A stretch of 39,893 nucleotides of DNA from a virus: positions 1 through 39,893 of IMG/VR virus record IMGVR_UViG_3300025892_000050. One strand, written 5' to 3'. The notes under the pieces are model-generated. The model was not told the origin of the DNA. It did not search any database and saw nothing but the letters and a program-made list of their open reading frames with translations. This document shows, in pieces, positions 3,526 through 39,016 of the stretch (within the stretch, counting starts at the first letter, position 1; each line of letters opens with the position of its first letter). Position numbers and translations under genes: made by a program.

Positions 3526-3533
3526 GTCTTTTT

Positions 3534-15143: not shown

Positions 15144-15222
15144 TGCTGACGTTGATGATATTGCTAAAAAACTTTTTGTAAACGAATTACTCTATGATTA
15201 TGAAGTAAAATATGTTGACTAA
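15001..15222 (+). CDS. purS: Phosphoribosylformylglycinamidine synthase, PurS subunit
   Basis: The 73-residue protein has the PurS pattern: IQTKLRSGIKDVEGETILNS near the N-terminus, ISVGEIYYLEIEND in the middle and VNELLYDYEV near the end. PurS bridges PurL and PurQ and passes ammonia in the small-subunit FGAM synthase of Gram-positive and cyanobacterial type, unlike the single large PurL of enterobacteria. Its ATG lies within the purD frame and its end overlaps purL by 11 bases. The bicistronic overlap implies tight translational coupling. Confidence 0.9.
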   Translation: MKKVAIQTKLRSGIKDVEGETILNSVGKDLKITHISVGEIYYLEIENDADVDDIAKKLFVNELLYDYEVKYVD

Positions 15223-16804
15223 AGATGAACTAATTGAAATTGAAAAAAGATTAAATAGAAAACCGAATCATACAGAAGAATCCGTTTTTGATGCAATGTG
15301 GAGTGAACATTGCAGTTATAAAACAAGCAAGCCTCATTTACGTAGATTATACACAGATAACAAATATGTTTTTTCAAGTCCTGGTGAAAACGCTGGAGTA
15401 ATTAGTATTGGTGGCACTGATAAAGTCGCATTTAAAATGGAGTCACATAATCACCCAAGTTATATTGAACCATTTCAAGGTGCAGCAACCGGAGTTGGTG
15501 GTATTCTACGTGATATCTTTACAATGGGATTTAGACCTATTGCACTTACCAATAATTTATTTTTCGGAGACCCTGCATTTTCTGATGATAGTAAACGTGT
15601 TATGGATGGAGTGATTGCAGGATTAACACACTATGGAAATTGTGTAGGTGTACCCACTGTCAGTAGTAAAATAAAGTTTAATGAAAGATATGAAAAAAAT
15701 CCACTAGTAAATGCAATGGCAATTGGTCATACTAGAGAACGTATTATAAAAAGTGTAGCCAAAAATCCGGGAAGATTATTATATGTCGGTGCTAAGACAG
15801 GAAGAGATGGTATTGGCGGAGCAGTAATGGCAAGTGATAGTTTCACAGATGGTGTAGATTTACGCCCTACTGTACAAGTGGGAGATCCATATCTAGAAAA
15901 GTTGTTAATAGAAGCCTGTCTTGAACTAGCAAAAACAGAACATGTGATTGCCGCACAAGATATGGGAGCAGCAGGACTTACCAGTTCTTCTACTGAAATA
16001 GGTATAAAAGGAGGCTCTGCATTATTTAAAGGAACATGTGGTATAGAATTAAATCTAGATAAAGTTCCGTTAAGAGAAACAGGTATGGAAGCTTGGGAGA
16101 TTTTACTCAGTGAATCTCAGGAAAGAATGTTGTTTGTTTTGCACGATCGGGGAATAGAAGAAGCTAAAGCTATTTTTGATAAATGGGATTTGGATTGTGT
16201 AGAAATTGGTCATACAACAGAAGATGGAAATTTTACAGTGTATAAGGATGGTAATGTTTGTTGTAATTTTCCGCTTAGTGCTTTAGAATATCCAGAAATG
16301 GAAAGACCCTGGAAACCAATATTTGAAAGAGAAGAAGCACAGGAGAATTATTTTTATAGTTCAGAATTAATTCATTCTCAATATGATAGTGAAGTTCAAG
16401 GTAATACAATAAAGGGTATTAGAGATGATGTAGCTATTGTCAGAATACCTAGAAAAGATGCCAGAGGTAAAGATAAACAAATTGCAATTTATACTGATAG
16501 CTTTCCATATCAGAGTTATATTAATCCAGACCAAGGAGCAGAGAATTGTATAGTTTCAGTTTATGATAAATTAGTTTCTATTGGTGCTAAACCTATAGCA
16601 TTAACAAATTGTTTGAATTTCGGCAATCCTGAGAACCCTGAGATTATGTTTGAGTTTAAAGAAACTATAGATGCAATGGCTAGAATCTGTGAGAAACTGG
16701 ACTTTCCTGTTGTCAGCGGCAATGTGAGTTTCTATAATGAAACATCAGGACAAAATATATTACCTACTCCAGTATTTGGAGCAATTGGTTTAATGGAGGA
16801 TTAA
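15212..16804 (+). CDS. purL: Phosphoribosylformylglycinamidine synthase PurL, lacking C-terminal domain
   Basis: PurL makes FGAM from FGAR (step 4) in complex with PurS and PurQ. Recognisable segments are SEHCSYKTSKPH, ESHNHPSYIEPFQGAATGVG, DIFTMGFRPIALTN, AAQDMGAAGLTSSSTE, SESQERMLFV and the second half start (NCLNFGNPENPEIM, VSGNVSFYNET, PTPVFGAIGLMED). The protein ends there, at 530 residues. Small-type PurL (as in Bacillus) is about 740 residues and continues with a second AIRS C-domain of about 170-200 residues. The missing part is absent from the following bases, which start purQ through a TAATG overlap. So this looks like a clean domain-boundary truncation, and activity is uncertain. 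Confidence 0.9.
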   Translation: MLTKDELIEIEKRLNRKPNHTEESVFDAMWSEHCSYKTSKPHLRRLYTDNKYVFSSPGENAGVISIGGTDKVAFKMESHNHPSYIEPFQGAATGVGGILRDIFTMGFRPIALTNNLFFGDPAFSDDSKRVMDGVIAGLTHYGNCVGVPTVSSKIKFNERYEKNPLVNAMAIGHTRERIIKSVAKNPGRLLYVGAKTGRDGIGGAVMASDSFTDGVDLRPTVQVGDPYLEKLLIEACLELAKTEHVIAAQDMGAAGLTSSSTEIGIKGGSALFKGTCGIELNLDKVPLRETGMEAWEILLSESQERMLFVLHDRGIEEAKAIFDKWDLDCVEIGHTTEDGNFTVYKDGNVCCNFPLSALEYPEMERPWKPIFEREEAQENYFYSSELIHSQYDSEVQGNTIKGIRDDVAIVRIPRKDARGKDKQIAIYTDSFPYQSYINPDQGAENCIVSVYDKLVSIGAKPIALTNCLNFGNPENPEIMFEFKETIDAMARICEKLDFPVVSGNVSFYNETSGQNILPTPVFGAIGLMED

Positions 16805-17421
16805 TGTATAAGGTTGGAGTTGTTATATTTCCTGGTTCCAATTGTGAGCAAGAAACTATTAGATTTTTAAAGACTTATAAGGAATTCCAAGTATCTACAA
16901 TTTGGCACAAAGAAAGTTCTGTTCCAAAATTAGATATGTATGTTTTACCAGGTGGATTTAGTTATGGAGATTATTTACGTGCCGGTATTCTTGCAAGTTT
17001 AAGTCCAGCAATGAATGATATTGAAAAATATGCCAATGATGGTAGAAAAGTTTTAGGAATATGTAATGGATTTCAGATTCTATGTGAGAGAAAGATATTA
17101 ACCGGCACACTGAGAAAAAATAATACTTTAAAATTCATATGCAAAGAAGTTGAATTATATGATAATCATCTAAAAAACATTACTGTACCAATTGCACATG
17201 GAGACGGACAGTTTTATTGTAATAAAAATGATCATTTTAATTTTGAAGTAGCTTGGCGCTACAAACCACTCAATCCAAACGGAAGTCTACATGCTATAGC
17301 TGGCATATACAACAATAAAGGTAATGTTCTTGGATTAATGCCTCATCCAGAACGTGCTTTTGAAAGTCATCACAAAAGTAAAGATGGTTATATAATAATA
17401 GATAAATTCTTATTAAGGTAA
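16804..17421 (+). CDS. purQ: Phosphoribosylformylglycinamidine synthase, glutaminase subunit PurQ
   Basis: PurQ supplies ammonia from glutamine to PurL. The 205-residue class I amidotransferase shows VVIFPGSNCEQET near the start, LPGGFSYGDYLRAG (48-61), the nucleophile Cys87 in LGICNGFQ, IAHGDGQFYC near 130-139 and the His181/Glu183 pair in PHPERAFE. Length is slightly below the bacterial norm of about 225. Its ATG overlaps the purL stop (TAATG), so the two are translated together. All catalytic residues are present, in contrast to the shortened PurL. Confidence 0.94.
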   Translation: MYKVGVVIFPGSNCEQETIRFLKTYKEFQVSTIWHKESSVPKLDMYVLPGGFSYGDYLRAGILASLSPAMNDIEKYANDGRKVLGICNGFQILCERKILTGTLRKNNTLKFICKEVELYDNHLKNITVPIAHGDGQFYCNKNDHFNFEVAWRYKPLNPNGSLHAIAGIYNNKGNVLGLMPHPERAFESHHKSKDGYIIIDKFLLR

Positions 17422-17423
17422 TT

Positions 17424-18365
17424 ATGAATTATAAAGATGCTGGAGTTGATGTAAATTTGGCAAATAATCTTGTAGATAAAATAAAAACTTATTCAGACCA
17501 AATTGGTAAATTTTCAGCTACGTGTGTTCTTCCGCAATGGTCAAATGGTAGTCTTGTTATGAGTTGTGATGGGGTAGGTACAAAAGTATTACTTGCAAAA
17601 TATGCTAAAGAAGTTTATCAACGTCCAATGAATTCAATTGGAGAAGATTGTGTAGCTATGGTAATGAATGATATTTTATGTGAAAATGCAGAACCTCTTT
17701 TTTTTATGGATTATTTTGCAACAGGTGAGTTAAATGAATCTTTTTATCTGGAAGTAATAGCAGGTATAGATAGTGCTTGTAAAAATATAAATGTAAAATT
17801 AGTAGGAGGTGAAACTGCTGAATTACCAGAAATGTTTAAAACAAATAAAAACTTTGATGTTTGTGGATTTGGAGTAGGTACAAAATTAGATGAAAATACA
17901 AAGAAAATTAAAAAGAATGATATTTTAATTGGACTTTATAGTACCGGTCTTCATAGTAATGGTTTTAGTTTAATAAACAAATTACTAAAAGATGACTATA
18001 AAATTAAAATAACAGAAGAACTGTTAAATAATTTGTTAAAACCAACTAAAATATATAAAAATGATTTAGATGAATTTAGAAAAAAATTAGTAGATATTAA
18101 AGCAGTTGCTCACATTACTGGAGGTGGTTGGAATAATATTAATAGAAGTATTTCATCTAAACATTCTATAAACTGGAAATCAGAATCAAAAATTTATTTT
18201 GCACATGAAGAATTGTTTAGTTGGTTACAAGAAAAAACATCATTAACAAATGATGAAATGAGAAGCACATTTAATTGTGGTTTAGGAATGGTTTTAGTAG
18301 TTGATCCTAAAAATTTAAAATCTGTTAATTTAAATTATGAAGTTTTGGGTGTATTAGAAAGTTGA
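17424..18365 (+). CDS. purM: Phosphoribosylformylglycinamidine cyclo-ligase (AIR synthetase)
   Basis: PurM closes the imidazole ring of AIR (step 5). The 313-residue protein starts with the typical MNYKDAGVDVNLANNLV, then SCDGVGTKVLLA, IGEDCVAMVMND, FFMDYFATG, LVGGETAELPEMF, the LYSTGLHSNGFSL loop and AHITGGGWNNINR. The C-terminus (NCGLGMVLVVDP...VLGVLES) is about 20-30 residues shorter than bacterial homologues but includes the last core strand. It starts two bases after the purQ stop, with AAGG as ribosome site. It is the last gene of the purine operon; I saw no terminator after it. Confidence 0.94.
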   Translation: MNYKDAGVDVNLANNLVDKIKTYSDQIGKFSATCVLPQWSNGSLVMSCDGVGTKVLLAKYAKEVYQRPMNSIGEDCVAMVMNDILCENAEPLFFMDYFATGELNESFYLEVIAGIDSACKNINVKLVGGETAELPEMFKTNKNFDVCGFGVGTKLDENTKKIKKNDILIGLYSTGLHSNGFSLINKLLKDDYKIKITEELLNNLLKPTKIYKNDLDEFRKKLVDIKAVAHITGGGWNNINRSISSKHSINWKSESKIYFAHEELFSWLQEKTSLTNDEMRSTFNCGLGMVLVVDPKNLKSVNLNYEVLGVLES

Positions 18366-18384
18366 TTATTAAAAGGAAAATATC

Positions 18385-18897
18385 ATGAAAGTTTATTTGT
18401 GTGGTTATCGTAGTTACTTGCATTTTTTTTATGATTGGCTTGTAGATGCAGAAGAAAGCGGAAAAATTAGTAAAAGAACTTATGATATTCTTTTTAGTAT
18501 TAATGATAAATTGTGTACAGTTGTCAATTGGGTTTGGCAACGTACACGTTTTGATTATGTAAAAATAGATGGAGATGATATATATAGTTTAGATTATAAA
18601 CTTTCTCAGGTTATTCATCCAGCACTTGTTAAGTTAAGAAAGGATAATGTATATTCTGTTCCATTTGTATCAAGTGATGATGTACCTGAAGAATTAAAAT
18701 TAGAAGATGATTCTCCAGTTAATGACACTGATATAGAATTTTTAGAAAAAAGATGGCACTATGTTTTGGATGAAATGATTTATGCATTTGAAAAAGTGAA
18801 GGAAGATAACATTATATTATTAAGCACAGAAAAGAGAAAAAGAGTTGATAATGGACTTTTGTTGTTTGGTAAATACTATTGTAATTTATGGATTTAG
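18385..18897 (+). CDS. Conserved phage protein of unknown function
   Basis: The 170-residue product has MKVYLCGYRSYLHFFYDWL at the start, a middle SLDYKLSQVIHPALVKLR and a late WHYVLDEMIYAFE, ending with an NGLLLFGKYYCNLW segment. These Trp/Tyr-rich motifs recur in large phages, as far as I recall, but no function is known to me. AAGGA precedes the ATG. It follows purM by 19 bases and precedes the Fe-S genes, so it may be part of a longer transcript. Confidence 0.65.
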   Translation: MKVYLCGYRSYLHFFYDWLVDAEESGKISKRTYDILFSINDKLCTVVNWVWQRTRFDYVKIDGDDIYSLDYKLSQVIHPALVKLRKDNVYSVPFVSSDDVPEELKLEDDSPVNDTDIEFLEKRWHYVLDEMIYAFEKVKEDNIILLSTEKRKRVDNGLLLFGKYYCNLWI

Positions 18898-18924
18898 TGA
18901 TAACAATAAATCAAACAAGGAGGT

Positions 18925-19032
18925 ATGACAACTGAAGGATTGGATTCTGAAAAATATAAAGAAGAAAAAGAAAGTGCAGATAATTTTAATATAAAATATA
19001 ATGTAGTCAGATATGTTTTACATCATCGCTAA
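18925..19032 (+). CDS. Possible 35-residue peptide
   Basis: An ATG at 18925 opens 35 codons (MTTEGLDSEKYKEEKESADN, then a NIKYNVVRYVLHHR end). A very strong AGGAGG lies only one or two bases before the ATG, which is too close for an ideal ribosome site. It fills the gap before the IscA-like gene. The product is charged and has no recognised motif. Confidence 0.4.
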   Translation: MTTEGLDSEKYKEEKESADNFNIKYNVVRYVLHHR

Positions 19033-19041
19033 GAGGTAAAA

Positions 19042-19395
19042 TTGATTATTGGAGATAAAGATTTTACAATTTCTATTACAGAAAAAGCAAAAAATATATT
19101 TTATGAAGCAGATGAAAAATTTATAAGAGTTGGAGCAAATCCAGGAGGATGTTCGGGATGGAGATGGACACTTGAATCAACTAATGACCTCAAACTCAAT
19201 GATGTTACATTTGAAGGTGGTAGAATAATCATTGATAAAGAACTATTGACAAACGTTATAGGTTCTATTACTATAGATTATAAGGATGATAATTTAATTG
19301 AACAAGGGTTTGTTTTTTTAACTAATTCAGGACAATGTGGTTGTGGAGAATCTTTTCAACCGTTAAATTCTAATTTTAAATTAGGAATTGAATAA
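19042..19395 (+). CDS. iscA: IscA/ErpA/HesB-like Fe-S carrier
   Basis: A-type carriers hold and deliver Fe-S clusters. The 117-residue product has the fold markers ISITEKAKNIF near the start and the three conserved cysteines: Cys37 in PGGCSGWRW, then Cys99 and Cys101 in SGQCGCGESF. These correspond to the family's Cys35/99/101 pattern. The predicted start is TTG at 19042 with GAGGT just before it; no better ATG exists upstream in frame. The frame ends two bases before the IscU ATG. Together they form a scaffold plus carrier pair. The E. coli operon also holds iscS and chaperones, which are absent here. Confidence 0.92.
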   Translation: MIIGDKDFTISITEKAKNIFYEADEKFIRVGANPGGCSGWRWTLESTNDLKLNDVTFEGGRIIIDKELLTNVIGSITIDYKDDNLIEQGFVFLTNSGQCGCGESFQPLNSNFKLGIE

Positions 19396-19396
19396 T

Positions 19397-19774
19397 ATGT
19401 CATACAGCAAAGAAGTCTTGGACCATTATAATGACCCAAAAAATGTAGGAAGTTTTTCTAAAGATGATGAAAATATTGGTACAGGATTAGTAGGCGCACC
19501 TGAATGTGGTGATGTAATGAAACTACAAATCAAAGTAGAAAACGATAGAATAGTTGACGCTAAATTTAAAACATTTGGTTGTGGAAGTGCAATTGCTAGT
19601 TCCAGTTTAGCAACTGAATGGGTAAAAGGAAAAACAATAGATGAGGCACTTGAAATAAAAAATACTGAAATAGTTGAAGAACTCTCTCTACCTCCCGTTA
19701 AAATTCATTGTTCTGTTTTAGCAGAAGATGCTATTAAAGCCGCAATCAAAAATTATCGTGAAAGAGCCGTATGA
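19397..19774 (+). CDS. iscU: IscU/NifU-like Fe-S scaffold
   Basis: IscU is the scaffold on which [2Fe-2S] clusters are built by IscS. The 125-residue product keeps all ligands: Cys37 and Asp39 in PECGDVM, Cys62 in FGCGSAI, and His104/Cys105 in KIHCSVLAEDA. It also keeps the exact LPPVK motif (99-103) that HscA recognises, so it should work with host chaperones. I chose ATG 19397; a TTG nine bases upstream is less likely. It overlaps the next gene by four bases. The phage supplies no IscS, so sulfur would come from the host cysteine desulfurase. Confidence 0.93.
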   Translation: MSYSKEVLDHYNDPKNVGSFSKDDENIGTGLVGAPECGDVMKLQIKVENDRIVDAKFKTFGCGSAIASSSLATEWVKGKTIDEALEIKNTEIVEELSLPPVKIHCSVLAEDAIKAAIKNYRERAV

Positions 19775-20112
19775 TTATATACGTAGACATAGATGGAACC
19801 ATTTGTGAAGAAGTTAAAATGGCAGATGGTTCCAAAGACTATCCGAATCATAAGCCAATATATGAACGGATTATGTATTTAAATTCTTTATATGATGAAG
19901 GTCATGAGATACATTATTGGACTGCAAGAGGAGCCAGAAGTGGTATAGACTGGACTGAATTGACAAATAAACAAATAAAAGAATGGGGATGTAAGCACAC
20001 AAGTGTAACTGTTGGAGGAAAACCACACTTTGATATATATGTTTGTGACAAAAGTTTTAATGCCGATGCATGGTTTACACATCAAAAATTACATAAAAAA
20101 TTAAAAAAATAA
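19771..20112 (+). CDS. HAD-like phosphatase
   Basis: The 113-residue product starts with the HAD motif VDIDGTICE, nucleophile Asp6 and acid/base Asp8, followed by a TARG turn (motif II Thr in HYWTARGA) and a C-terminal KPHFDIYVCDKSFNADAW region with the motif III/IV Lys and Asp. It lacks a cap domain, as in the short phage HAD proteins. The substrate is unknown; sugar-phosphate, nucleotide or 5'-end processing are all possible. It is coupled to iscU by an ATGA-type overlap. A strong promoter follows its stop. Confidence 0.78.
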   Translation: MIIYVDIDGTICEEVKMADGSKDYPNHKPIYERIMYLNSLYDEGHEIHYWTARGARSGIDWTELTNKQIKEWGCKHTSVTVGGKPHFDIYVCDKSFNADAWFTHQKLHKKLKK

Positions 20113-20113
20113 C

Positions 20114-20141
20114 TTGACATTTCTTTCAAGTCTGATATACT
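20114..20141 (+). promoter_or_regulatory. Sigma-70-like promoter
   Basis: TTGACA (20114-20119), a 16-base spacer and TATACT (20136-20141) precede the gene at 20186 by about 45 bases. It follows the cTTGACAtt pattern seen at several other sites in the window. Confidence 0.7.
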
Positions 20142-20185
20142 TATTTCTATAGTTTGATTGACCCAACTCAAACCTTAGAGGTATC

Positions 20186-20551
20186 ATGGAAAATTTTGAA
20201 AATGCAATTGCCATTTATCTTCAAGCAATCATAGCAGACTATAAAGTATTTTCATCATGGGGAAGGAACCTGAGAGCAACCAGAACAGAAGCAGAAATCA
20301 GAAGTCAGATGATTGAAAAGTTTGAGAAAGGTATTGATATTACATATGGTAAGAAATATGCCAAAGTGACTACAACTATTGGTAATGGTCAAGAAACTGT
20401 TCATTCTTTTGTTGTATTGGAAGACGGTACTAAATTCAAAAGAGGTGACATTCTGATGGCAGCAAGTTGGGCAAGTCCTGCAAAAAATAAGGCAAGAGGA
20501 AATATTTTTGGTGAGTACAAAACAAAATGGACAGGTGCAGAGTACCTTTAA
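20186..20551 (+). CDS. Protein of unknown function
   Basis: The 121-residue product begins with a helix (MENFENAIAIYLQAIIADYK), an Arg-rich middle (GRNLRATRTEAEIRSQMIEK) and a beta-rich second half (YAKVTTTIGNGQETVHSFVV, then KFKRGDILMAASWASPAKN). No family is recognised. AGAGGT before the ATG and the strong promoter upstream suggest early expression. The second half could be a small OB- or SH3-like barrel, but that is a shape argument only. Confidence 0.65.
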   Translation: MENFENAIAIYLQAIIADYKVFSSWGRNLRATRTEAEIRSQMIEKFEKGIDITYGKKYAKVTTTIGNGQETVHSFVVLEDGTKFKRGDILMAASWASPAKNKARGNIFGEYKTKWTGAEYL

Positions 20552-20580
20552 TTTATTAACATAATTAATGAGATTATATA

Positions 20581-20751
20581 ATGTCAAACAAATCAAAAGC
20601 CGGTTCTAGTCAACATAATGCAGAATTAAAAGCCGGGCAAGTTAAGTTTTTAGAAACAGGCGGTGCTACTGAAAATATCAGACAATCATCTTCAATATGT
20701 TTTCGCAGAATTGAAATTATTGATGGTAAAAAATATAGAGTTTTTTCATGA
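20581..20751 (+). CDS. Small basic protein of unknown function
   Basis: The ATG at 20581 opens 56 codons: MSNKSKAGSSQHNAELKAGQ then VKFLETGGATENIRQSSS and a short beta segment (CFRRIEIIDGKKYRVFS). It overlaps the next gene by four bases (TCATGA), which supports it as a real coupled gene. No family is recognised. Confidence 0.55.
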   Translation: MSNKSKAGSSQHNAELKAGQVKFLETGGATENIRQSSSICFRRIEIIDGKKYRVFS

Positions 20752-21143
20752 AAGAATTAGTGGATCATCCAGAGCATTACAATTCTCATCCTTCTGGTGT
20801 GGAAGCAATTGTTATTGTTGAGAACATGTCATTTGGATTGGGTAATGCATTTAAGTATGTATATAGACACAAATATAAGAATGGTGTAGAAGATTTAAAA
20901 AAAGCTATCTGGTATTTGAAACGTGAAATAGATAATCCGATTTATGATCATAGACACCCGGATTATAGATATTTTGGAGTGTATGATGCATTTCTTGAAA
21001 TATTAAAACATGAAGAGGATGATACAGTAAGACAAGTACTTGATTATATATATTACTATTCTTATACAAATAAAAATTCTAAAGAATTAGAAAAGGCTAT
21101 TGATTTAATCAATCTTTTAATTTTAAAATATAATAAAATATAG
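20748..21143 (+). CDS. DUF3310-like protein
   Basis: The 131-residue product has the DUF3310 pattern: a DHPEHYNSHPSGVEAIVIVE start, then FGLGNAFKYVYRHKYKN and VEDLKKAIWYLKREID. Homologues are common in phages (sometimes labelled nucleotide kinase) and their biochemical role is unsettled. The tail beyond residue 70 is helical (AFLEILKHEEDDTVRQVLDY) and less conserved. It is coupled to the small gene upstream by ATGA. Confidence 0.8.
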   Translation: MKELVDHPEHYNSHPSGVEAIVIVENMSFGLGNAFKYVYRHKYKNGVEDLKKAIWYLKREIDNPIYDHRHPDYRYFGVYDAFLEILKHEEDDTVRQVLDYIYYYSYTNKNSKELEKAIDLINLLILKYNKI

Positions 21144-21187
21144 AACATTATATGCTAAATTATATAATTAATATTATGGAGTTTAAT

Positions 21188-21322
21188 ATGAGGACTTTGT
21201 TTGTTGTTTTTGCTATTTCTTTATTTGCGGCATCTTGCACACATAATCATTTTTGCTGGCCTGGCAATTATGAAAATGGTATGATGAAAAATACCCTATC
21301 ATGTGAACGTATTAATCATTAA
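21188..21322 (+). CDS. Small putative lipoprotein
   Basis: The ATG at 21188 opens 44 codons. The first 17 residues (MRTLFVVFAISLFAASC) form a lipoprotein signal with a lipobox AASC and Cys17 as the possible lipid site. The mature part is short (THNHFCWPGNYENGM...). A GGAG lies just upstream. It overlaps the next gene start. Phage lipoproteins of this size can act in superinfection exclusion or lysis, but neither is shown. Confidence 0.55.
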   Translation: MRTLFVVFAISLFAASCTHNHFCWPGNYENGMMKNTLSCERINH

Positions 21323-21851
21323 TATGAAAAACGAATATACTCACCTAAAAACAATTAAAAAAGTTATAGAACAGCATGAATATGATTATAAGTCTTTATA
21401 TATTCTTATGATTAATGATGTTGTCAATAAAGTTGATTTTAGGAGTATGAGTGAGTATATGCGTATCCTTGAATTAAAATGGAATAATGTTACACCTCCG
21501 CAAAGATTGATTAAATCAACATGTTACCACTTATTAATAGATTCTGCTACAAAATTAATAAACAATAAATTAGATAAAATATTTTGTAATCATGAACATC
21601 TTAATGTTGAAATATACAGTATTAATTATCATGATAAAAACTTAGCAGGAAATATTAATGTATATTTTAATTTAGAAAGAAAGGAAAATTTACTGAGGGA
21701 TTATTTTTCATTAGTAGATTTTGAAAATGCTTATTTGTCTACAGATGAAAAAATAGAAATTTTAAATAATAGATTATCAGCAGTAGAAGATAAGCTTGAA
21801 TTAGAACGTATAAGAAAAAAAATAGATAGTCATCCTGACACTTCTGAATGA
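21303..21851 (+). CDS. Protein of unknown function, mostly helical
   Basis: The frame begins with GTG at 21303 or ATG at 21324; the ATG gives MKNEYTHLKTIKKVIEQHEY. Neither has a clear ribosome site; the GTG overlaps the lipoprotein gene. The 175-182-residue product is helical and charged and ends with a coiled-coil-like stretch (KIEILNNRLSAVEDKLELER). No family is recognised. A terminator-like hairpin follows the stop at once. Confidence 0.55.
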   Translation: MNVLIINMKNEYTHLKTIKKVIEQHEYDYKSLYILMINDVVNKVDFRSMSEYMRILELKWNNVTPPQRLIKSTCYHLLIDSATKLINNKLDKIFCNHEHLNVEIYSINYHDKNLAGNINVYFNLERKENLLRDYFSLVDFENAYLSTDEKIEILNNRLSAVEDKLELERIRKKIDSHPDTSE

Positions 21852-21852
21852 A

Positions 21853-21880
21853 CGGATTTTTACAGAAATAATCCGATTTT
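21853..21880 (+). terminator. Probable intrinsic terminator
   Basis: CGGATT (21853-21858) pairs with AATCCG (21870-21875) over an 11-base loop, followed by ATTTT. It lies right after the stop of the preceding gene and just before a new promoter, as expected of a unit boundary. The stem is short. Confidence 0.5.
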
Positions 21881-21884
21881 CCCC

Positions 21885-21912
21885 TTGACATTTCTCCCGC
21901 ATCTGCTATGAT
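21885..21912 (+). promoter_or_regulatory. Sigma-70-like promoter
   Basis: TTGACA (21885-21890), a 16-base spacer and TATGAT (21907-21912), about 44 bases before the ATG at 21956. Confidence 0.7.
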
Positions 21913-21955
21913 CTGATCATTGAGTGAGTGATTCCTAATCCAAAAGGAGAACGTT

Positions 21956-22219
21956 ATGATGATTCGCAAAATCTCTCAAGACCAACATCAGCAGATGCAA
22001 GCACTCAAAGAAAAGTATGACCAATCTCATGGTTCACCATTTGATGTTGGTACATGTGATAGCTACTACTACCGACCAGAATCCCCAAATTATTGGGAAG
22101 GCGGCTCCAAAATCAGAGGAACTCAAATCTTTGAAGCAGATATGACCCCAGAGCAAATTGAAGCATACCATGCTGGTTATGCATACAATGAGTGGATGGG
22201 AGATAAAAAAGAATGGTAG
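21956..22219 (+). CDS. Small early-type protein of unknown function
   Basis: The 87-residue product starts MMIRKISQDQHQQMQALKEK and ends NEWMGDKKEW, with a Tyr/Pro-rich middle (CDSYYYRPESPNYWEGG) and a helical AYHAGYAYNEW end. No family is recognised. A strong GGAGA site precedes the ATG, and the gene has its own near-consensus promoter. Its base composition is less AT-rich than neighbouring genes, which may indicate a separate origin or strong expression. Confidence 0.65.
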   Translation: MMIRKISQDQHQQMQALKEKYDQSHGSPFDVGTCDSYYYRPESPNYWEGGSKIRGTQIFEADMTPEQIEAYHAGYAYNEWMGDKKEW

Positions 22220-22231
22220 TCATTTTTTTAC

Positions 22232-22260
22232 TTGACATTTTGATTATCCTAGTGTATACT
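22232..22260 (+). promoter_or_regulatory. Sigma-70-like promoter
   Basis: TTGACA (22232-22237), a 17-base spacer and TATACT (22255-22260), 43 bases before the ATG at 22304. It has the same cTTGACAtt form as the other early-type promoters. Confidence 0.75.
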
Positions 22261-22303
22261 ATCTTCTGTTGATTGATTAAATAACTTCTCAAGGAGAATC
22301 GTC

Positions 22304-22726
22304 ATGGCAAACGTAAATCTTTCCCAAGTTCACAATGCACTTTCCCAAAAACTGAGTGGCAAGGAACTCTCCATTGCACAAGAAGTTGTCAACAAGATTG
22401 TTAAAAAGAATGGTGCGCTACGTGCCTCAAAGCCAAAAGGTGAGAGTGGTGTAGACTCTCTTGCTAAATATGTATGGCGCATGGTAGCGTTTGTTTGTTT
22501 GCCTGGCCAAAATGCATGTATGCCTGTTACAGCGGATTTTGATTTGTATTCCTACATTGAATCAGAAAAGCCGCATCTCAAAGGCGTTGAAACTATTCGT
22601 TACGCAAGAATCAAGGACAACGATGAGAAAGTTCTTGCGCAAACTATAGAAGATGCTGTTTGTCATGCAATCCCTAAAAACGAATGGAGAAACATCCGTG
22701 CTTGGGGAAGAGCATTGGGATACTAA
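22304..22726 (+). CDS. Early-type protein of unknown function
   Basis: The 140-residue product has a helical start (ALSQKLSGKELSIAQEVVNK), a basic middle (ALRASKPKGESGVDSLAKY) and a Trp/Cys-containing second half (VWRMVAFVCLPGQNACM, RNIRAWGRALGY end). No family is recognised. It has its own promoter and a strong AAGGAGA site. Like the previous gene it is richer in G and C than its neighbours. This fits a small early protein acting on the host, but the role is open. Confidence 0.65.
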   Translation: MANVNLSQVHNALSQKLSGKELSIAQEVVNKIVKKNGALRASKPKGESGVDSLAKYVWRMVAFVCLPGQNACMPVTADFDLYSYIESEKPHLKGVETIRYARIKDNDEKVLAQTIEDAVCHAIPKNEWRNIRAWGRALGY

Positions 22727-22746
22727 TTCTAACAAACGGAGTTTTC

Positions 22747-22908
22747 ATGATATGGGGTGTAACGTTTTTACTCTCAGCACTTAAACTTATCGGGTTAATA
22801 ACAGCACCCTGGGTTTTAATCTTTCTACCAATGATTTTGACAAGTTCATTCATAATCTTTGGTTTAGCTTACATTGGTTTCAATAAATTAGAGGAAGAAG
22901 AAGAATGA
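22747..22908 (+). CDS. Small membrane protein (two segments)
   Basis: I chose ATG 22747 because CGGAG lies six bases before it; a longer frame from 22684 would overlap the previous gene. The 53-residue product has two hydrophobic segments (VTFLLSALKLIGLITAPWVL, then FLPMILTSSFIIFGLAYIGF) and an acidic tail (NKLEEEEE). It starts a run of three tiny membrane peptides. The function is unknown. Confidence 0.6.
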   Translation: MIWGVTFLLSALKLIGLITAPWVLIFLPMILTSSFIIFGLAYIGFNKLEEEEE

Positions 22909-22991
22909 AAGAATTTGATGTTATTGTGGCAATTACTGGATTTATTTTATTCAACACTGTTTTTGCAATTAGTATCGCAGGTATGATTTGA
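22905..22991 (+). CDS. 28-residue membrane peptide
   Basis: The ATG overlaps the previous stop (ATGA). The product, MKEFDVIVAITGFILFNTVF plus AISIAGMI, is a single membrane helix. The overlap pattern, shared with both neighbours, supports translation despite the small size. The function is unknown. Confidence 0.45.
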   Translation: MKEFDVIVAITGFILFNTVFAISIAGMI

Positions 22992-22992
22992 T

Positions 22993-23094
22993 ATGAAAGA
23001 TGGTAAAAATTTAGTACTCTGGTTATTTTTCATGATAGTAACTTTTACCGTATTAGCCATATTAGAAACAGTTCTTGAGGTTCCGGACATATGA
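22993..23094 (+). CDS. 33-residue membrane peptide
   Basis: The ATG lies one base after the previous stop. The product is MKDGKNLVLWLFFMIVTFTV then LAILETVLEVPDI, a single membrane helix. Its end overlaps the next gene start (ATGA). The function is unknown; it could act with the two neighbouring membrane peptides. Confidence 0.45.
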   Translation: MKDGKNLVLWLFFMIVTFTVLAILETVLEVPDI

Positions 23095-23420
23095 ATGCGC
23101 AAATGATTTTGAGAGATGAACTAAACTTTCTTGAAAATTTATATGAGCATAAAATAACTGATGATGTGTTGGATCAATTGTTTGGAACTAAACGGCTTAT
23201 CAAAGTTTCTATGTTTATTGAAACTCTTAAAAATTATTTGTCAAAAGGCACGGCTTCTATTTCAAGAGGTAATGTAGCAATTTATGATGACCTGCATGTT
23301 GTGGAACATCCAAATGGTGACTTAATAGGATATGTTTATAAAAGACCTTCATCTGGTCAGAGTACAATTAAACGTTCTCCATCAGATGTATTCTTTGACT
23401 ATTTTGATAATAGAGGATAA
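23091..23420 (+). CDS. Protein of unknown function
   Basis: The 109-residue product has a helical first half (MNAQMILRDELNFLENLYEH, RLIKVSMFIETLKNYLSKG) and a beta-rich second half with a Tyr/Arg-rich segment (DLIGYVYKRPSSGQSTIKR). No family is recognised. It overlaps the membrane peptide before it by four bases and is three bases from the next gene. Confidence 0.55.
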   Translation: MNAQMILRDELNFLENLYEHKITDDVLDQLFGTKRLIKVSMFIETLKNYLSKGTASISRGNVAIYDDLHVVEHPNGDLIGYVYKRPSSGQSTIKRSPSDVFFDYFDNRG

Positions 23421-23422
23421 TT

Positions 23423-23713
23423 ATGAAATCTAAATTTTATTTCTTCAGTGACCCTGCACATGGATGGTTGAGAGTTGACCGTGATACATTAACAGAACTT
23501 GGTTTGACTCAAAATGATTTTACAGAGTATTCATACATTGACATTCATTATATGTATTTGGAAGAAGATCATGATGCATCAAAGTTCATGACAGAATGGG
23601 CTAAGAAAATGCCATCAACCAGTAAGCTACAAATTGTTGAGAGAGTTTCTGAGAAAAAAGATTCGTTTGTTCGTAGGAAATACCAAAACTTTAGAATCAA
23701 AGAGGTTGCTTGA
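23423..23713 (+). CDS. Protein of unknown function
   Basis: The 96-residue product begins MKSKFYFFSDPAHGWLRVDR and ends with a basic stretch (RRKYQNFRIKEVA). The start, with an Asp-His pair and Trp, resembles small proteins of many large phages, but I cannot name a family. AGAGGAT precedes the ATG. Its stop overlaps the next gene by four bases. Confidence 0.6.
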   Translation: MKSKFYFFSDPAHGWLRVDRDTLTELGLTQNDFTEYSYIDIHYMYLEEDHDASKFMTEWAKKMPSTSKLQIVERVSEKKDSFVRRKYQNFRIKEVA

Positions 23714-23976
23714 AACTATTCGGAAAAGAACTTAAACTTTTTTTTGTGGAGAAACTATCTGAAAATTGGGCATGGGAAATAGAATTTTTAAAATGGACGG
23801 GTTCTTGGGGAAATTTTCTAGTTTATGAAAATTCAATATCATTGAGATTGAAGGGGGACCATAGAGGAATCTATTGGTCCTATCATATTCTCGGTTTTAA
23901 AATTATTGAACTGAATGTTTACGATACACGCCATGAAGAACAAATTTCTATTGTAAATAGAGGTTTAGACCATTAA
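23710..23976 (+). CDS. Protein of unknown function
   Basis: The 88-residue frame starts with TTG overlapping the previous stop (TTGA), with AAGAGG nearby. The product is rich in Trp and aromatic residues (WAWEIEFLKWTGSWGNFLVY) and mostly beta. No family is recognised. It is the last plus-strand gene. The 41-base gap to the leftward fibre region holds no clear hairpin terminator. Confidence 0.5.
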   Translation: MKLFGKELKLFFVEKLSENWAWEIEFLKWTGSWGNFLVYENSISLRLKGDHRGIYWSYHILGFKIIELNVYDTRHEEQISIVNRGLDH

Positions 23977-24017
23977 AACATCTATTGTTGCAGATTGTAG
24001 TTCATCTAAATTAATTT

Positions 24018-24668
24018 TTAATCTGTGTAATAAGTTAAGAAAAATCCAATATAGCTGACTTGCGTGACATGATTGCCATCGCCATAGGAATCTGCATATA
24101 AAGCATTTACCAATTGCCATTTATCTGCATGTGCTGCTGTTCCATTATATGTAAAACTTCCTACTGCATGAGCAAATACTGGAGAAGTCGCAGCAGAAAA
24201 AGGAAATCCATTTAATCTTAGTCCAGAACCTGATGTTCCACTATTTCCAGAATCACATCTACCCCACAAAGTAACTTGCCTACCAATTTTGATATAAAAT
24301 CCTTGTTTAGTTAGCCATGTAGAGTCATTGGTCGAAACATGGAAAACATTTGGAACCCAAGTACCCTCTTCATAATCATCCAGGGTAGTGTTTCCAAAAT
24401 TAATTCCATAGCTATTTGGAAATGTTAAATTTCCAGCAATATTCAAATTACCGTTTTTATCCAAGACAAACTTATCCGTATTTACAGTCATAGCATTACC
24501 AGTACCAGACTGTATAACTTCTAATGCTGCATTAGAACTTTGATAGTTTACTTTAAATCCAGTATTACTGGATTCAAAAAAGTTATTGCTATCAAAGCTA
24601 GATGTATCTATAATCTTTGTAAGACCACTTTTTGAATAAATTTGATCTAGATAAATTCTACTACTCAT
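24018..24668 (-). CDS. Tail fibre / receptor-contact protein
   Basis: The 216-residue product starts with MSSRIYLDQIYSK, followed by a short-strand middle with LDKNGNLNIAGNL and NFGNTTLDDYEEGTWVPN, a segment common in phage fibre and minor structural proteins. The C-terminal 110 residues are a Gly/Ser/Tyr-rich beta domain (LWGRCDSGNSGTSGSGLRL, GFPFSAATSPV) that probably contacts the receptor. It overlaps the upstream gene by four bases. It is the last gene of the leftward fibre operon. Confidence 0.72.
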   Translation of the reverse strand: MSSRIYLDQIYSKSGLTKIIDTSSFDSNNFFESSNTGFKVNYQSSNAALEVIQSGTGNAMTVNTDKFVLDKNGNLNIAGNLTFPNSYGINFGNTTLDDYEEGTWVPNVFHVSTNDSTWLTKQGFYIKIGRQVTLWGRCDSGNSGTSGSGLRLNGFPFSAATSPVFAHAVGSFTYNGTAAHADKWQLVNALYADSYGDGNHVTQVSYIGFFLTYYTD

Positions 24669-24925
24669 GGAGTAACTTCAGCTTGCTCTGCTACATGTTG
24701 TTGATATGCCGCTACAACATCTGCTGTATGTACGGCAGCAACAATTGCTTGAACTTTTGCATCACGATTAGAAACATCTTCTCCAGGTGGCACAACGTAT
24801 CTATGATAATTTTGTGAAATCACTTGACCATCTTCCAAGACCTGTACCGCTTCTCTGACTTGTACATGATTAAATTCTCCGACAACTTCTACTTTGTCTG
24901 TGATTGTTCTCTTCTCAAGTGCCAT
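24665..24925 (-). CDS. Small conserved virion-region protein
   Basis: The 86-residue product starts MALEKRTITDKVEVVGEFNH, has VQVREAVQVLEDGQVISQNY and ends in an Ala/Val-rich helix (AIVAAVHTADVVAAYQQHV). Similar short proteins sit between fibre genes of marine myophages, as I recall; their role is not known. AAAGGA precedes the ATG, and a GATAAATA (minus strand, 24965-24972), one base off the late consensus, lies about 40 bases upstream. Confidence 0.65.
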   Translation of the reverse strand: MALEKRTITDKVEVVGEFNHVQVREAVQVLEDGQVISQNYHRYVVPPGEDVSNRDAKVQAIVAAVHTADVVAAYQQHVAEQAEVTP

Positions 24926-24964
24926 TTATTTTTCCTTTATAAATGATATTAAAATTGTATACTA

Positions 24965-24972
24965 TATTTATC
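24965..24972 (-). promoter_or_regulatory. Possible late promoter box
   Basis: Minus-strand GATAAATA, one base off TATAAATA, at a plausible distance from the gene starting at 24925. The surroundings are AT-rich, so chance is possible. Confidence 0.3.
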
Positions 24973-24999
24973 TATTGTGCTTTAAGAGTTTTTGATATA

Positions 25000-25050
25000 T
25001 TAATTTCCTGTTTCTAATGCTTCAATTCTTGCGGTTAGTGCGTCAATCTC
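25000..25050 (-). pseudogene. Relict 3' end of a fibre gene
   Basis: On the minus strand, directly after the stop of the gene ending at 25054, codons read EIDALTARIEALETGN-stop. This is a heptad-like coiled-coil tail as found at the end of fibre or chaperone genes. No start codon is available in frame, since stops TAA and TGA lie just upstream. It looks like the remnant of a gene whose front was replaced by the present fibre module. Confidence 0.5.
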
Positions 25051-25053
25051 TCA

Positions 25054-26229
25054 TTAGCGGAAGATTGCTGCTTTAACATTAGAGTTATCAACTAAAGCAC
25101 CATTTGTATTATATGTGTATACCTTTACAGATCCTGTGCTTTCACTGTAAGTATAAGGCCCCTTATCTCCATTTCCACCACCAGCAACAGAAGAAGTAAC
25201 AGTAGAAAAATTTGCATCTGGCATCGCATTGGTGAAGTTTACTCCGTAATGTCCTGTTCCTAGATCTGTCAGGCTTGACACATTCCCACTTCCCAAAATT
25301 GAAACTGTTCCTGTTCCATTAAACCTTATCCAAGCTCTACACGCATATGCAGTACCAACTGAACCAAAACCTGAGTCAAATTTAAGATTCCCACTGTTAT
25401 CAATCCGCATTCTTTCACCATCAACACCGGAAAAAACATACCCAGTGAATCCAGTTTGATTCCCGTAAAATGTTAGTAACCCAGTAGAACCATTCCGACC
25501 AAATTCGTAAGACTGTGTAGCACTTGCACCATTTTCGACTCTAATTTGATTATCAGCAACATTTCTAATTGATAAAGTTTGACTTGGACTACTCGTCCCA
25601 ATCCCCACATTCCCACTGGAATCAACAACCAACGCATTGCTACCAATGGCTGCCGTTCCCGCATTCACCACAACACTTCCATTACTCTCACTTATCACAC
25701 TTCCACCATTGCTATCTACAATTGGAAGAACAGTTGAACTACTTGTAGCTGGTTCTCTACTAACAATCGCAACCACATCACCGTTCACTGGATTGAGTGT
25801 GAATGATATCACTTTTGTGTTAACGTTGATGCTGAAATCACTTGAAGCAAGTTTCACACCATTCAGGTAAACATCTGTACTGTCACCAGTCAAAGGATAT
25901 GGAAACGTGACTGTAGTCTCGTTGTTAGCAATTGTATGCTCATGGCGGCGCTCTGAGAAACGCACACCTTGTGTTAGATTTCTTCTACCTATGACAAAAA
26001 CGATGTCACCAGCAATTACATTACTTGCAAGTGTGATGGTCTTTCTATCTGCGCCAAGAGTGTAGTCATCAGAACCCAGTAAAACACCATTTTTATATAC
26101 ATCTAGGTAATTAGATTTACCTGATACAACAAACCCACTGGTGGCGATTGTGTTTGTTGTGCTTGTGATGTTGAATTCTTCTCTAAATTCGTTTGATTGT
26201 AGTGCTGGTTGTTTTCCTAAGTAGGCCAT
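25054..26229 (-). CDS. Tail fibre protein with C-terminal W-F-x-G-T-G domain
   Basis: The 391-residue product starts MAYLGKQPALQSNEFREEFN, with a repeated beta unit of the form LDVYKNGVLLGSDDYTL (about 42-58) and VYLNGVKLASSDFSI (about 121-135) that looks like a duplicated virion-proximal domain. The middle contains DSSGNVGIGTSSPSQTLSI, a common fibre linker. The C-terminal part (from about 295) is ACRAWIRFNGTG...VSSLTDLGTGHYGVNF...AMPDANF ending AAIFR, shared with two other genes here. Its ATG overlaps the stop of the gene before it (TAATG). Likely a receptor-binding fibre. Confidence 0.8.
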   Translation of the reverse strand: MAYLGKQPALQSNEFREEFNITSTTNTIATSGFVVSGKSNYLDVYKNGVLLGSDDYTLGADRKTITLASNVIAGDIVFVIGRRNLTQGVRFSERRHEHTIANNETTVTFPYPLTGDSTDVYLNGVKLASSDFSINVNTKVISFTLNPVNGDVVAIVSREPATSSSTVLPIVDSNGGSVISESNGSVVVNAGTAAIGSNALVVDSSGNVGIGTSSPSQTLSIRNVADNQIRVENGASATQSYEFGRNGSTGLLTFYGNQTGFTGYVFSGVDGERMRIDNSGNLKFDSGFGSVGTAYACRAWIRFNGTGTVSILGSGNVSSLTDLGTGHYGVNFTNAMPDANFSTVTSSVAGGGNGDKGPYTYSESTGSVKVYTYNTNGALVDNSNVKAAIFR

Positions 26230-26459
26230 TAACTAGTCTCTATGTTTATAGCCTTTAAATCTTCAACGGATGTAGCTGTATCACAAAGCATCGTGATGTC
26301 TCTGAGTTGTTGCTTCTCCGCTACAATTGCAGTTGTATCAGTTCCGGCTTCCTGCGCTCTCATATAGAGTATATCTTGAGCCTCTAACAAAGGCTTGCGT
26401 TCTTGTCGTAGCGATTCACGTTTGATCTCTCTGGCTTTATCTAAATTTATTGTAATCAT
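26229..26459 (-). CDS. Small fibre-associated protein
   Basis: The 76-residue product begins MITINLDKAREIKRESLRQE and is helical and charged (RKPLLEAQDILYMRAQEAGT, EKQQLRDITMLCDT). The layout, a short strand then an Arg-rich helix, recalls small tail-fibre-associated or assembly proteins of marine phages. It lies between two fibre-domain genes. The upstream linker (26462-26480) is an exact copy of one at 27040-27058 and holds its AAGGA site. The function is inferred from place only. Confidence 0.6.
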   Translation of the reverse strand: MITINLDKAREIKRESLRQERKPLLEAQDILYMRAQEAGTDTTAIVAEKQQLRDITMLCDTATSVEDLKAINIETS

Positions 26460-26461
26460 TG

Positions 26462-26480
26462 GGTTCCTTAGTTGTTAGCG
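26462..26480. repeat. 19-bp direct repeat, copy 1
   Basis: The plus-strand sequence GGTTCCTTAGTTGTTAGCG is identical to 27040-27058. On the minus strand it covers the last Arg codon and stop of a fibre gene and the AAGGA site of the next gene, so it is a duplicated gene-junction linker. Confidence 0.85.
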
Positions 26481-26825
26481 GAAGATTGCGACAGAAACAA
26501 ATGGCGAGTCTTGTAATGCTGTGCTGGTCTGAAGGGTAGTAATTCTCACCGAATCTGTGGCAACGTTAGCATCTCCATCGCTTGTCTGAACTACGATGAA
26601 AACTCCGTAGTCACTTACTCCATCATAGTGTCTACCACAAGCAGTAACGACATAATCATTATCCGGCATTGCATTCTCAAAGTTCACGGTATAGTCTCCT
26701 GTGCCGTTGTCGGTGATGCTGGAAACATGGAAGCTGGCCCGTATTGCTACCGTTCCCGTACCATTAAAATTCACCCACGCAGCAAGCTGATGTCCTGCAT
26801 CTGCAATTTCAACCGATCTGGTCAC
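26475..26825 (-). CDS. Short fibre-domain protein
   Basis: The 116-residue product is almost only the shared domain: LAAWVNFNGTGTVAIRASFH, then VSSITDNGTGDYTVNFENAM and a variable loop, ending VAIFR. It matches the C-terminus of the fibre at 25054 and the gene at 27053. It overlaps the gene before it by four bases (ATGA). A stand-alone fibre tip or a swapped-in domain are the likely readings. Confidence 0.72.
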   Translation of the reverse strand: MTRSVEIADAGHQLAAWVNFNGTGTVAIRASFHVSSITDNGTGDYTVNFENAMPDNDYVVTACGRHYDGVSDYGVFIVVQTSDGDANVATDSVRITTLQTSTALQDSPFVSVAIFR

Positions 26826-27037
26826 GCTCCCACCCCATCATAGCTATTAGTGAAATCGTAGTCCCAAGCATTGCGAAACTCCCGGTCTGCTGGCAGTTCG
26901 CTACTGTCGATGATCTTGTATTTGACACCCGTAGGGACATCTTTCGCACAGATCTGTTCTAACGTAAGCCCACAGTTCGGTGCTGGTACTAGCACACTGA
27001 TTGTACCTTCGGTATTTGGGAAAATTGCTAGTTTCAT
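26822..27037 (-). CDS. Small conserved fibre-region protein
   Basis: The 71-residue product starts MKLAIFPNTEGTISVLVPAP and continues with LTLEQICAKDVPTGVKYKII and ELPADREFRNAWDYDF. I recognise this as a recurrent short protein in phage tail regions, where its role is unknown. The AAGGA site lies in the 19-bp linker repeated elsewhere in this region. It overlaps the fibre-domain gene after it by four bases, so both are made together. Confidence 0.68.
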   Translation of the reverse strand: MKLAIFPNTEGTISVLVPAPNCGLTLEQICAKDVPTGVKYKIIDSSELPADREFRNAWDYDFTNSYDGVGA

Positions 27038-27039
27038 TT

Positions 27040-27058
27040 GGTTCCTTAGTTGTTAGCG
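27040..27058. repeat. 19-bp direct repeat, copy 2
   Basis: Exact copy of 26462-26480, again spanning the end of a fibre-domain gene and the ribosome site of the following gene on the minus strand. Confidence 0.85.
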
Positions 27059-27382
27059 AAATACTGCGGCTGAAATATCATCGAAATCAGTTCTCGCCCC
27101 ACTGAAGGCTTCACTGATAACAGTAAACGAGGTTGTTGTTTGGCCCGATGTTATAAAAGCGTGTAATTCATTGGTTGCTAATACTGAATAATTTGCGTCA
27201 GGCATTGCTGTTGTCATATTTACGGTATGGTCCCCTATTCCGTTATCAGTGATGCTAGAAACATTTCCAGAAGCGGATATTGCTGGTGTGCCTGTCCCGT
27301 CAAAGTGTACCCAGGCACGGCAACCAAATATAGGTGCATCATCACCGTTGGGCAAGTTCCCTATATTTCTTGCGTTACTCAT
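27053..27382 (-). CDS. Short fibre-domain protein
   Basis: I chose ATG 27380-27382, which overlaps the stop of the small gene upstream (ATGA), rather than a TTG at 27406. The 109-residue product begins MSNARNIGNLPNGDDAPIF and is then the shared domain: GCRAWVHFDGTGTPAISASG, VSSITDNGIGDHTVNMTTAM, PDANYSV and an AAVFR end. It is the third copy of this domain in the window. The loop between about 80 and 100 differs most from the other two and may face the receptor. Confidence 0.72.
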   Translation of the reverse strand: MSNARNIGNLPNGDDAPIFGCRAWVHFDGTGTPAISASGNVSSITDNGIGDHTVNMTTAMPDANYSVLATNELHAFITSGQTTTSFTVISEAFSGARTDFDDISAAVFR

Positions 27383-27522
27383 ACTGCATCCGGTGGTGTG
27401 GGCCAAACTACGTTGGTTAGTTGTCCGTTCTCATCTAGCGTTGCGTTCTTAATATCTACTTTATCATTAACAATGTCGTGCTGTGCGATGGTGTGTCCAG
27501 CGACCTTGATTGATCCAGCCAT
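27379..27522 (-). CDS. 47-residue chimeric remnant of fibre chaperone
   Basis: A minus-strand frame from ATG 27520-27522 to TGA 27379 encodes MAGSIKVAGHTIAQHDIVND and a tail LDENGQLTNVVWPTPPDAV. The tail matches the C-terminus of the tail-assembly chaperone genes at 30438, 38115 and 39016, while the front does not. It sits just after a FPDGTIIQ-type fibre gene, exactly where those chaperones sit. It is coupled to the next gene by an ATGA overlap. Most likely a recombinant left-over that is still translated. Confidence 0.6.
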   Translation of the reverse strand: MAGSIKVAGHTIAQHDIVNDKVDIKNATLDENGQLTNVVWPTPPDAV

Positions 27523-30437: not shown

Positions 30438-30818
30438 TTATTCTGGTTTCTCTGGCCAATTAATATTAATTAAATTACCATTTTCATCTAGTTGTGGTTC
30501 TGCTGTAACTGGCAAATCTCTAAGTGCTTGTCGGTATGCTTTCAAACTATCTATATTTAATCCTTTTTCTAATCCTCTAGTGATTTCCCAATCTGTTTTT
30601 GCTAGTTTGTTATTTCTTTCTTCTCGCATTAATCTAAGAGGTTCTGCTAATTTTAATTCTTCATATTTCAATAGAATTTCTTCTTGACTGGGTTGCTCTA
30701 GTTCAGTCTCATACCATTCAACTATATGATTATCTACAACCTGAAATAGTGCATTTTGTTTGTTTACTAATAAATCTACTGCTTCTCTGTATAACATTGC
30801 AGGACTTTTTAGATTCAT
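30438..30818 (-). CDS. Tail fibre assembly chaperone
   Basis: The 126-residue product has the Phage_tail_APC pattern: AEPLRLMREERNNKLAKTDW, then ITRGLEKGLNIDSLKAYRQA and LRDLPVTAEPQLDENGNLIN with WPEKPE at the end. These helices and the TDW motif guide fibre folding in tailed phages. The first half (REAVDLLVNKQNALFQVVDN) is unique to this copy. It overlaps the fibre gene before it by four bases (ATGA). Similar partners follow the genes at 38483 and 39357. Confidence 0.8.
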   Translation of the reverse strand: MNLKSPAMLYREAVDLLVNKQNALFQVVDNHIVEWYETELEQPSQEEILLKYEELKLAEPLRLMREERNNKLAKTDWEITRGLEKGLNIDSLKAYRQALRDLPVTAEPQLDENGNLININWPEKPE

Positions 30819-38114: not shown

Positions 38115-38486
38115 TTACTCCGGTGGTGTAGGCCAAATTACGTTTGTCAATTCTCCATTCTCATTCAATTGTGGTTCTGCTGTTGCAGGCAAGTCTCTTA
38201 ATTGTTGTAAGTATGTTTGCCATTCCATTGGGACTTCTGTACCTTGACTGTATGCTCTGATTGTAATCCAATCATATTTCGCTAATAATCTGTCACGTTC
38301 TAATCTTAACAGGCGTAATGGTTCTGCTGCTTCTAGTTCTGCTATTTTGGCTTGAATCTCTTCTCTAGTTGGAATAATTTCATTTAACCATATTATGTTG
38401 TCATAATCATCTATTGTGTTTGTAGGTGATGGAAATATACTCCATTGACCATCATAATATTCATTTAAAACTGTAAATAAATTCAT
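38115..38486 (-). CDS. Tail fibre assembly chaperone
   Basis: The 123-residue product has LEAAEPLRLLRLERDRLLAK and YDWITIRAYSQGTEVPMEWQ, then LRDLPATAEPQLNENGELTN and VIWPTPPE. It is the same chaperone family as at 30438 and 39016, with TYL in place of the other spacer. The first 45 residues are unique and probably read the partner fibre. It overlaps the fibre gene at 38483 by four bases, as in the other pairs. Confidence 0.8.
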   Translation of the reverse strand: MNLFTVLNEYYDGQWSIFPSPTNTIDDYDNIIWLNEIIPTREEIQAKIAELEAAEPLRLLRLERDRLLAKYDWITIRAYSQGTEVPMEWQTYLQQLRDLPATAEPQLNENGELTNVIWPTPPE

Positions 38487-39016
38487 CGTGGCATTACCTC
38501 ATAAACTACTATTGAAGAAATATGTTGTTGATTTCTAGCATCTTCGGATGCGTTAGGATTGAAATAATTAAACGGTCTTTCATTTGAACTGTTTGCAGTT
38601 TTCCATCCAAAATATATTGATGTAGTTCCGACTGGTGGTGTTGACCAATAACCTGATCCTATAATTATTGTTGTTTGTTGTGTTGAACTCCATGAACCAT
38701 CATATTGATATCCACAACCAAACTGCCATGTTGAGTTTAGTTTCATTCCAACTCCACAATTTCCAGAACTATATCCTGAACCATAAACTGTACAAGTTGC
38801 AAATATATCAGTGTCACTTCTTAATTTCGTAAAATTATTACCAAACAATGTTGCTTCTGATGACGCGGATATTGAAGACCGTGTTCCATTTTGTATAACA
38901 AAAGATTGTATTATATGCCCAGCAGGAAACTTAACATTATTTGTTAATGCCCCATTGTTCAACAATATATTGTCGTTTAAATCTTTTATTTCTATTACTT
39001 TTAAAGCACTTGGCAT
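38483..39016 (-). CDS. Fibre protein of the FPxGxIIQ group
   Basis: The 177-residue product starts MPSALKVIEIKDLNDNILLN, with NGALTNNVKFPAGHIIQSFV (about 20-39) as the group signature. The C-terminal part is rich in Gly/Ser/Tyr (CTVYGSGYSSGNCGVGMKLN, GCGYQYDGSWSSTQQ) and ends SSIVVYEVMPR. Two aromatic/Cys-rich loops could be receptor contacts. It pairs with the chaperone gene after it. Confidence 0.75.
   Translation of the reverse strand: MPSALKVIEIKDLNDNILLNNGALTNNVKFPAGHIIQSFVIQNGTRSSISASSEATLFGNNFTKLRSDTDIFATCTVYGSGYSSGNCGVGMKLNSTWQFGCGYQYDGSWSSTQQTTIIIGSGYWSTPPVGTTSIYFGWKTANSSNERPFNYFNPNASEDARNQQHISSIVVYEVMPR

Follow-up and report, generated by a model that had tools for sequence, protein, structure and literature searches.

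The fibre tip locus lies at positions 25,054 to 27,382 of the window, the whole 39,893-nucleotide stretch of viral DNA that was analysed. All of its genes are on the minus strand (Table 1). Gene A has an ATG start at 27382, which overlaps the stop of gene 27379 by 4 nt, and gene C uses a GTG start codon. Elsewhere the window has several T4-like phage genes (UvsY-like, SbcC/SbcD-like, a helicase and a late sigma factor). It also carries purine synthesis genes at 13776-18365, encoding phosphoribosylglycinamide synthetase, AIR-synthase-like proteins and a glutamine amidotransferase.

Table 1. Genes, linkers and domain copy at the fibre tip locus
Feature	Position	Strand	Description
Gene 27379	27379..27522	-	47 aa; truncated chimeric fibre-assembly gene
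Gene A	27053..27382	-	109 aa; standalone fibre tip, MSNARNIGNLPNGDDAP + domain, end AVFR
19-bp linker, copy 1	27040..27058	-	Arg codon + TAA + AAGGA ribosome site of gene B
Gene B	26822..27037	-	71 aa; probable fibre-binding half of a split tail-fibre chaperone
Gene C	26475..26825	-	116 aa; standalone fibre tip between B and D, VTRSVEIADAGHQ + domain, end AIFR
19-bp linker, copy 2	26462..26480	-	Arg codon + TAA + AAGGA ribosome site of gene D
Gene D	26229..26459	-	76 aa; probable trimerising half of the split chaperone
Gene E	25054..26229	-	391 aa; longer fibre protein with a C-terminal domain copy
Domain of gene E	25054..25341		residues about 296-391

The tip domain

The initial annotation described three domain copies that end in IFR or VFR, and this reading holds, with AIFR in gene E (25054), AIFR in gene C (26475) and AVFR in gene A (27053). 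The shared motif that it reported is also present, but its spacing is W-x-x-F-x-G-T-G (WIRFNGTG, WVNFNGTG and WVHFDGTG) instead of W-x-F-x-G-T-G, and the domain fills most of genes A and C rather than all of them. The three copies match the tail fibre family PHROG_11355 with E values of 8.5e-15 (gene E), 5.3e-19 (gene C) and 7.5e-16 (gene A); a Pfam scan of the three gave no family above its cut-off. This match makes them similar to the tail fibre proteins of PHROG_11355 and PHROG_3484, but genes A and C are short genes of their own, a common form of the domain.

A domain profile was run over 207 sequences (206 loci and the window) and gave 339 hits, corresponding to 254 distinct copies. The loci were gathered with B, D and domain queries, so the counts describe that sample with close relatives included, and insertions can split domain hits (more than one hit in 36 ORFs). 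The domain is at the very C-terminus in 233 of the 254 distinct copies, with IFR (105) and VFR (63) as the commonest endings. Short separate genes account for 124 of the 254; the domain is preceded by 60-150 residues in 52 and by more in 48. The remaining copies either run off the locus (9) or are non-C-terminal or without a stop (21). Tandem standalone tip-domain genes occur in other phages (L132, L145, L157, L173, L192 and L193), and some of these runs are joined by similar short linkers.

The first half of the domain is conserved, with a mean entropy of 1.25 bits, and the second half is hypervariable (3.02 bits). The structure model is all-beta, with a mean pLDDT of only 74. The predicted beta-sandwich resembles the H-type-lectin-like tips of tailspikes and fibres, with Z scores of 9.1 for the phiAB6 tailspike tip, 7.3 for the Pam1 tailspike, 6.2 for AP22 gp53, 5.6 for R-pyocins and 6.3 for the H-type lectin SLL-2. 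Unlike these tips, the domain in the window has a short gene of its own and a hypervariable second half, and its sequence gave nothing credible against solved structures (best E 0.028 over the searches with the domain, B, D and B-D). The best matches among predicted viral proteins are phage proteins, many of them nameless, and a cyanophage protein. A word search of papers found no mention of the motif. The fold comparison suggests that the repeated domain may be a lectin-like receptor-binding tip.

Genes B and D

Genes B and D are probably the two halves of a tail-fibre chaperone. They form one ORF in 19 other cases, in which B is the first half of the fused ORF. Gene D matches PHROG_4912 (tail fiber assembly, E 2.7e-5) and PHROG_20196 (E 2.2e-16), and scores 16.6 bits against the Pfam family Phage_tail_APC (PF16778), below the cut-off of 26.6. 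Two of five fused B-D proteins scanned also match PF16778, with a maximum of 18.5 bits. In 143 of the 154 distinct B-D pairs, B is preceded by a domain gene, and the order tip-B-D is also found in the isolate Prochlorococcus phage P-SCSP-R27W.

The model of a fused B-D protein has a pLDDT of 90, with a strand-containing front and a helical rear. This layout is similar to that of Pam3 gp24-gp25 as given in passages of PMC9608196, where the N-terminal front of the chaperone gp25 binds the fibre and its helical C-terminal rear trimerises. In contrast to gp25, B and D of the window are separate genes with a tip gene between them. A fold search of solved structures with the fused B-D model gave no convincing match; neither gp25, Mu Tfa nor any other tail-fibre chaperone chain is among the matches listed, though such a listing does not speak against a chaperone fold. 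Since no solved structure matched convincingly and D scores below the Pfam cut-off, the chaperone role is argued from weak PHROG matches, gene order and domain layout.

The window also has three different Phage_tail_APC chaperone genes above the Pfam cut-off (30438-30818, 38115-38486 and 39016-39360), each behind a different fibre-like gene. The region is therefore an array of fibre-chaperone units.

The 19-bp linker

The linker CGCTAACAACTAAGGAACC is present in two exact copies, as the initial annotation had stated, and the window has no third site at up to 3 mismatches (0 expected from 100 shuffles). Its earlier description as a stop region with a ribosome site is also correct. Each copy consists of the last codon CGC, TAA, a spacer and AAGGA, followed by the ATG of the next gene. 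The repeat was said to link all three domain copies. It follows genes A and C, but the domain of gene E lacks it and has only CGCTAA in common with it.

The exact 19-mer occurs in two stretches of viral contigs, which are L001, the nearest relative of the window, and the unrelated L002, a phage contig in which it lies amid unrelated genes. The closest linker outside the window to that of gene C is in L025, behind a tip gene that has the same leader type as gene C (VEIADAGHQ) and follows D. Part of the resemblance between linkers comes from the conservation of ribosome sites alone: tip-B junctions that are unrelated already agree at about 55%. The linker is a conserved junction, made of the usual tip-gene ending (Arg-stop) and the ribosome site of the next gene. 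A candidate RNA element was rejected because an Rfam search at the linker gave no match. In L010, L025, L031, L041 and L210, a conserved TTCAACGGACACTAAATGAG (or a close form of it) is found behind the tip gene, overlapping the next start codon.

Position of the tip gene

Among 154 distinct B-D pairs, 124 are adjacent and 19 are fused in one ORF, together 143 of 154. Of the rest, 8 have another gap of more than 60 nt and 3 have a domain gene between B and D; 14 further B matches have no D within 900 nt. Many of the adjacent pairs have a 4-base start/stop overlap. The tip gene separates B from D in the window, in its relative L001 and in L146, which is unrelated to them, so only two lineages show this arrangement. 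The suggestion that whole tip genes are gained or lost is supported, since most relatives have none at this place.

Gene C starts at the GTGA that begins D in relatives such as L066, and it ends with the linker directly ahead of the ATG of D. L146 is an independent second case. It has the layout tip-linker-B-tip-linker-D with near-identical linkers of its own, and its B and D sequences differ from those of the window. The leader type VEIADAGHQ was found in 8 viral contigs, L001 and 7 others. In the window and L001 the tip with this leader separates B from D, and in all 7 other contigs it comes directly after D, so the position of the cassette varies between phages. A search for a tip ending right before D through CGCTAA gave 6 stretches, of which only L001 is real; the other 5 are B-D pairs in which the CGCTAA ending B is out of frame, and they were rejected. 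The CGTTAA version of the search gave 0 stretches.

In L215 and L018, other tip genes are followed by a stub of the start of B (ATGAAACTAGCA, first 12 bases), a pattern that a joint move of the tip, the linker and the start of B would leave. These stubs and the differing positions suggest that tip genes relocate, and no donor was found.

Exchange between relatives

L001 is 99.67% identical to the window over 9,324 bp (17,744-27,067). At the place of gene A it has another tip allele with another linker, and the 27040 linker copy is absent. The first codons of its B gene differ from the window up to about 26981-27000. The end of gene 27379 is identical to the end of a full-length tail assembly chaperone gene in the relative L001/L013 and its front differs, which gives a breakpoint near 27443; beyond about this position the window and its relative are unrelated, as far as L013 reaches. 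Tips are therefore exchanged between near-identical phages, in agreement with the earlier proposal of tip swapping. The accompanying claim of a crossover hot spot at the 19-mer is not supported by the same breakpoints. None of those found is at a 19-mer, and that of L001 lies inside B and not in the linker.

Across the sampled loci, 143 junctions were compared in pairs after dropping copies that do not start near profile position 1 or that lack B within 40 nt. In pairs with B at least 85% identical, the second half of the tip is at the unrelated level in 67 of 71 (0.50; shuffled 0.48), and linker agreement is 0.70 versus 0.55 in unrelated pairs. The first half of the domain was aligned ungapped in this comparison, so its likeness is understated.

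The window record and a 74-kb relative, both of them fragments, gave no match to RVT_1 (diversity-generating retroelement), Resolvase, Phage_integrase or HNH_3. A diversity-generating retroelement, an invertase and an integrase were rejected as candidates in these two records because of the missing matches.

Origin of the extra tip gene

The explanation that we favor, and consider reasonably likely, is that this is a tip locus of a T4-like marine phage with lectin-like tips and a split chaperone (B and D), to which an extra tip gene brought its own linker. The extra gene would have arrived together with the linker that follows it, and its point of entry would have been the 4-base overlap of start and stop at the B/D boundary; this would most likely be the reason that the linkers are identical at both junctions. 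The tip bodies may later have diverged, or ordinary recombination may have swapped them between phages, acting in the conserved sequence on either side: the domain's first half at one end, and the linker and the start of B at the other. Traveling as the stop of the tip and the ribosome site of the next gene, the linker would leave any downstream gene translatable. B and D would be made as separate genes here, and elsewhere they overlap or are fused. The separate tip proteins would then join the fibres.

It is possible, with a distinctly lower probability, that the 19-mer is no more than a translation signal under conservation, in which selection on the Arg-stop ending of the domain and on a strong ribosome site has made the junctions converge without shared history of the copies. 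The form ...TTCCGCTAAC...AAGGA...ATG is seen again at many tip-B junctions of relatives, and the exact 19-mer among the unrelated genes of L002 also fits convergence. However, of 15,000 linker pairs sampled across contigs, just 14 are as alike as the pair of the window and just 1 is as alike as that of L146, and the other 21 tail-region gene starts of the window match the linker at 11 of 19 positions at best. Since its identity within the genome exceeds the norm of the family, the linker probably moved along with the tip gene.

Identical linkers at both junctions would also result if the upstream tip gene had been duplicated locally in tandem, together with its linker, and had then diverged. 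In the conserved half, the two tip genes of L146 share 102 of 135 nt, and L086 has the whole tip-B-D block twice. The standalone tips of the window agree at only 86 of 135 nt in this half, however, and 18 of their 31 identical residues are on different codons. Their N-terminal leaders also differ in type, and each type is found elsewhere; the VEIADAGHQ leader after D in 7 other contigs disfavors a local origin of gene C. We therefore regard this duplication as unlikely. The recent duplication of domains that the initial annotation proposed was rejected on codon differences, since more than half of the identical residues among the three copies are on different codons; their conserved halves agree at only 82-86 of 135 nt, and identity is confined to the linker.

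Two further mechanisms are both very improbable. The linker could be a dedicated site at which a site-specific recombinase swaps or inverts tip genes, as the exact repeat at two tip-gene junctions and the adjoining allele replacement might suggest, but neither Resolvase nor Phage_integrase was matched in the two fragment records, the breakpoints found are away from the 19-mer, and linkers differ between close relatives. Alternatively, a homing endonuclease could cut at the B/D overlap, and repair of the cut could copy tip genes into it. L160 does have an ORF for an HNH_3 endonuclease (E 5e-14) between its B and D homologues, at about 3300-3850, but this is a single case, and neither the window record nor the 74-kb relative has an HNH_3 match.

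Relation to known systems and biological meaning

The kind of system is known, but its arrangement at this locus is unusual. Hypervariable tail-fibre islands are known in marine phages, T4-like phages included, and the window has this feature in common with the host recognition cluster and metaviromic islands (PMC7029224, PMC3909814). Exchanged fibre-chaperone modules are also already known (PMC10579305). The linkers and the tips inside a split chaperone are not described in the passages of PMC7029224 and PMC3909814 on these islands, and a limited search of the open-access literature found no case of a split chaperone that encloses a tip gene and has a repeated linker.

The host bacteria of a phage are determined by its tail-fibre tips. 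The tip domain described here is widespread, has a fixed half and a hypervariable half, and is often encoded by a separate small gene; the probable chaperone beside it occurs as a single gene, as a pair of genes, or as a pair that a tip gene separates. A more speculative reading is that tip genes with start/stop overlaps and a stop/ribosome-site linker are portable cassettes. Tips could then be stacked, and one phage might fold several of them because the chaperone is split into separate tip-binding and trimerising proteins. If this is true, host range can evolve by the gain or exchange of a unit of about 360 bp. The locus offers testable boundaries for tip exchange in uncultivated marine phages and hints at how such phages gather and exchange their host-recognition tips.
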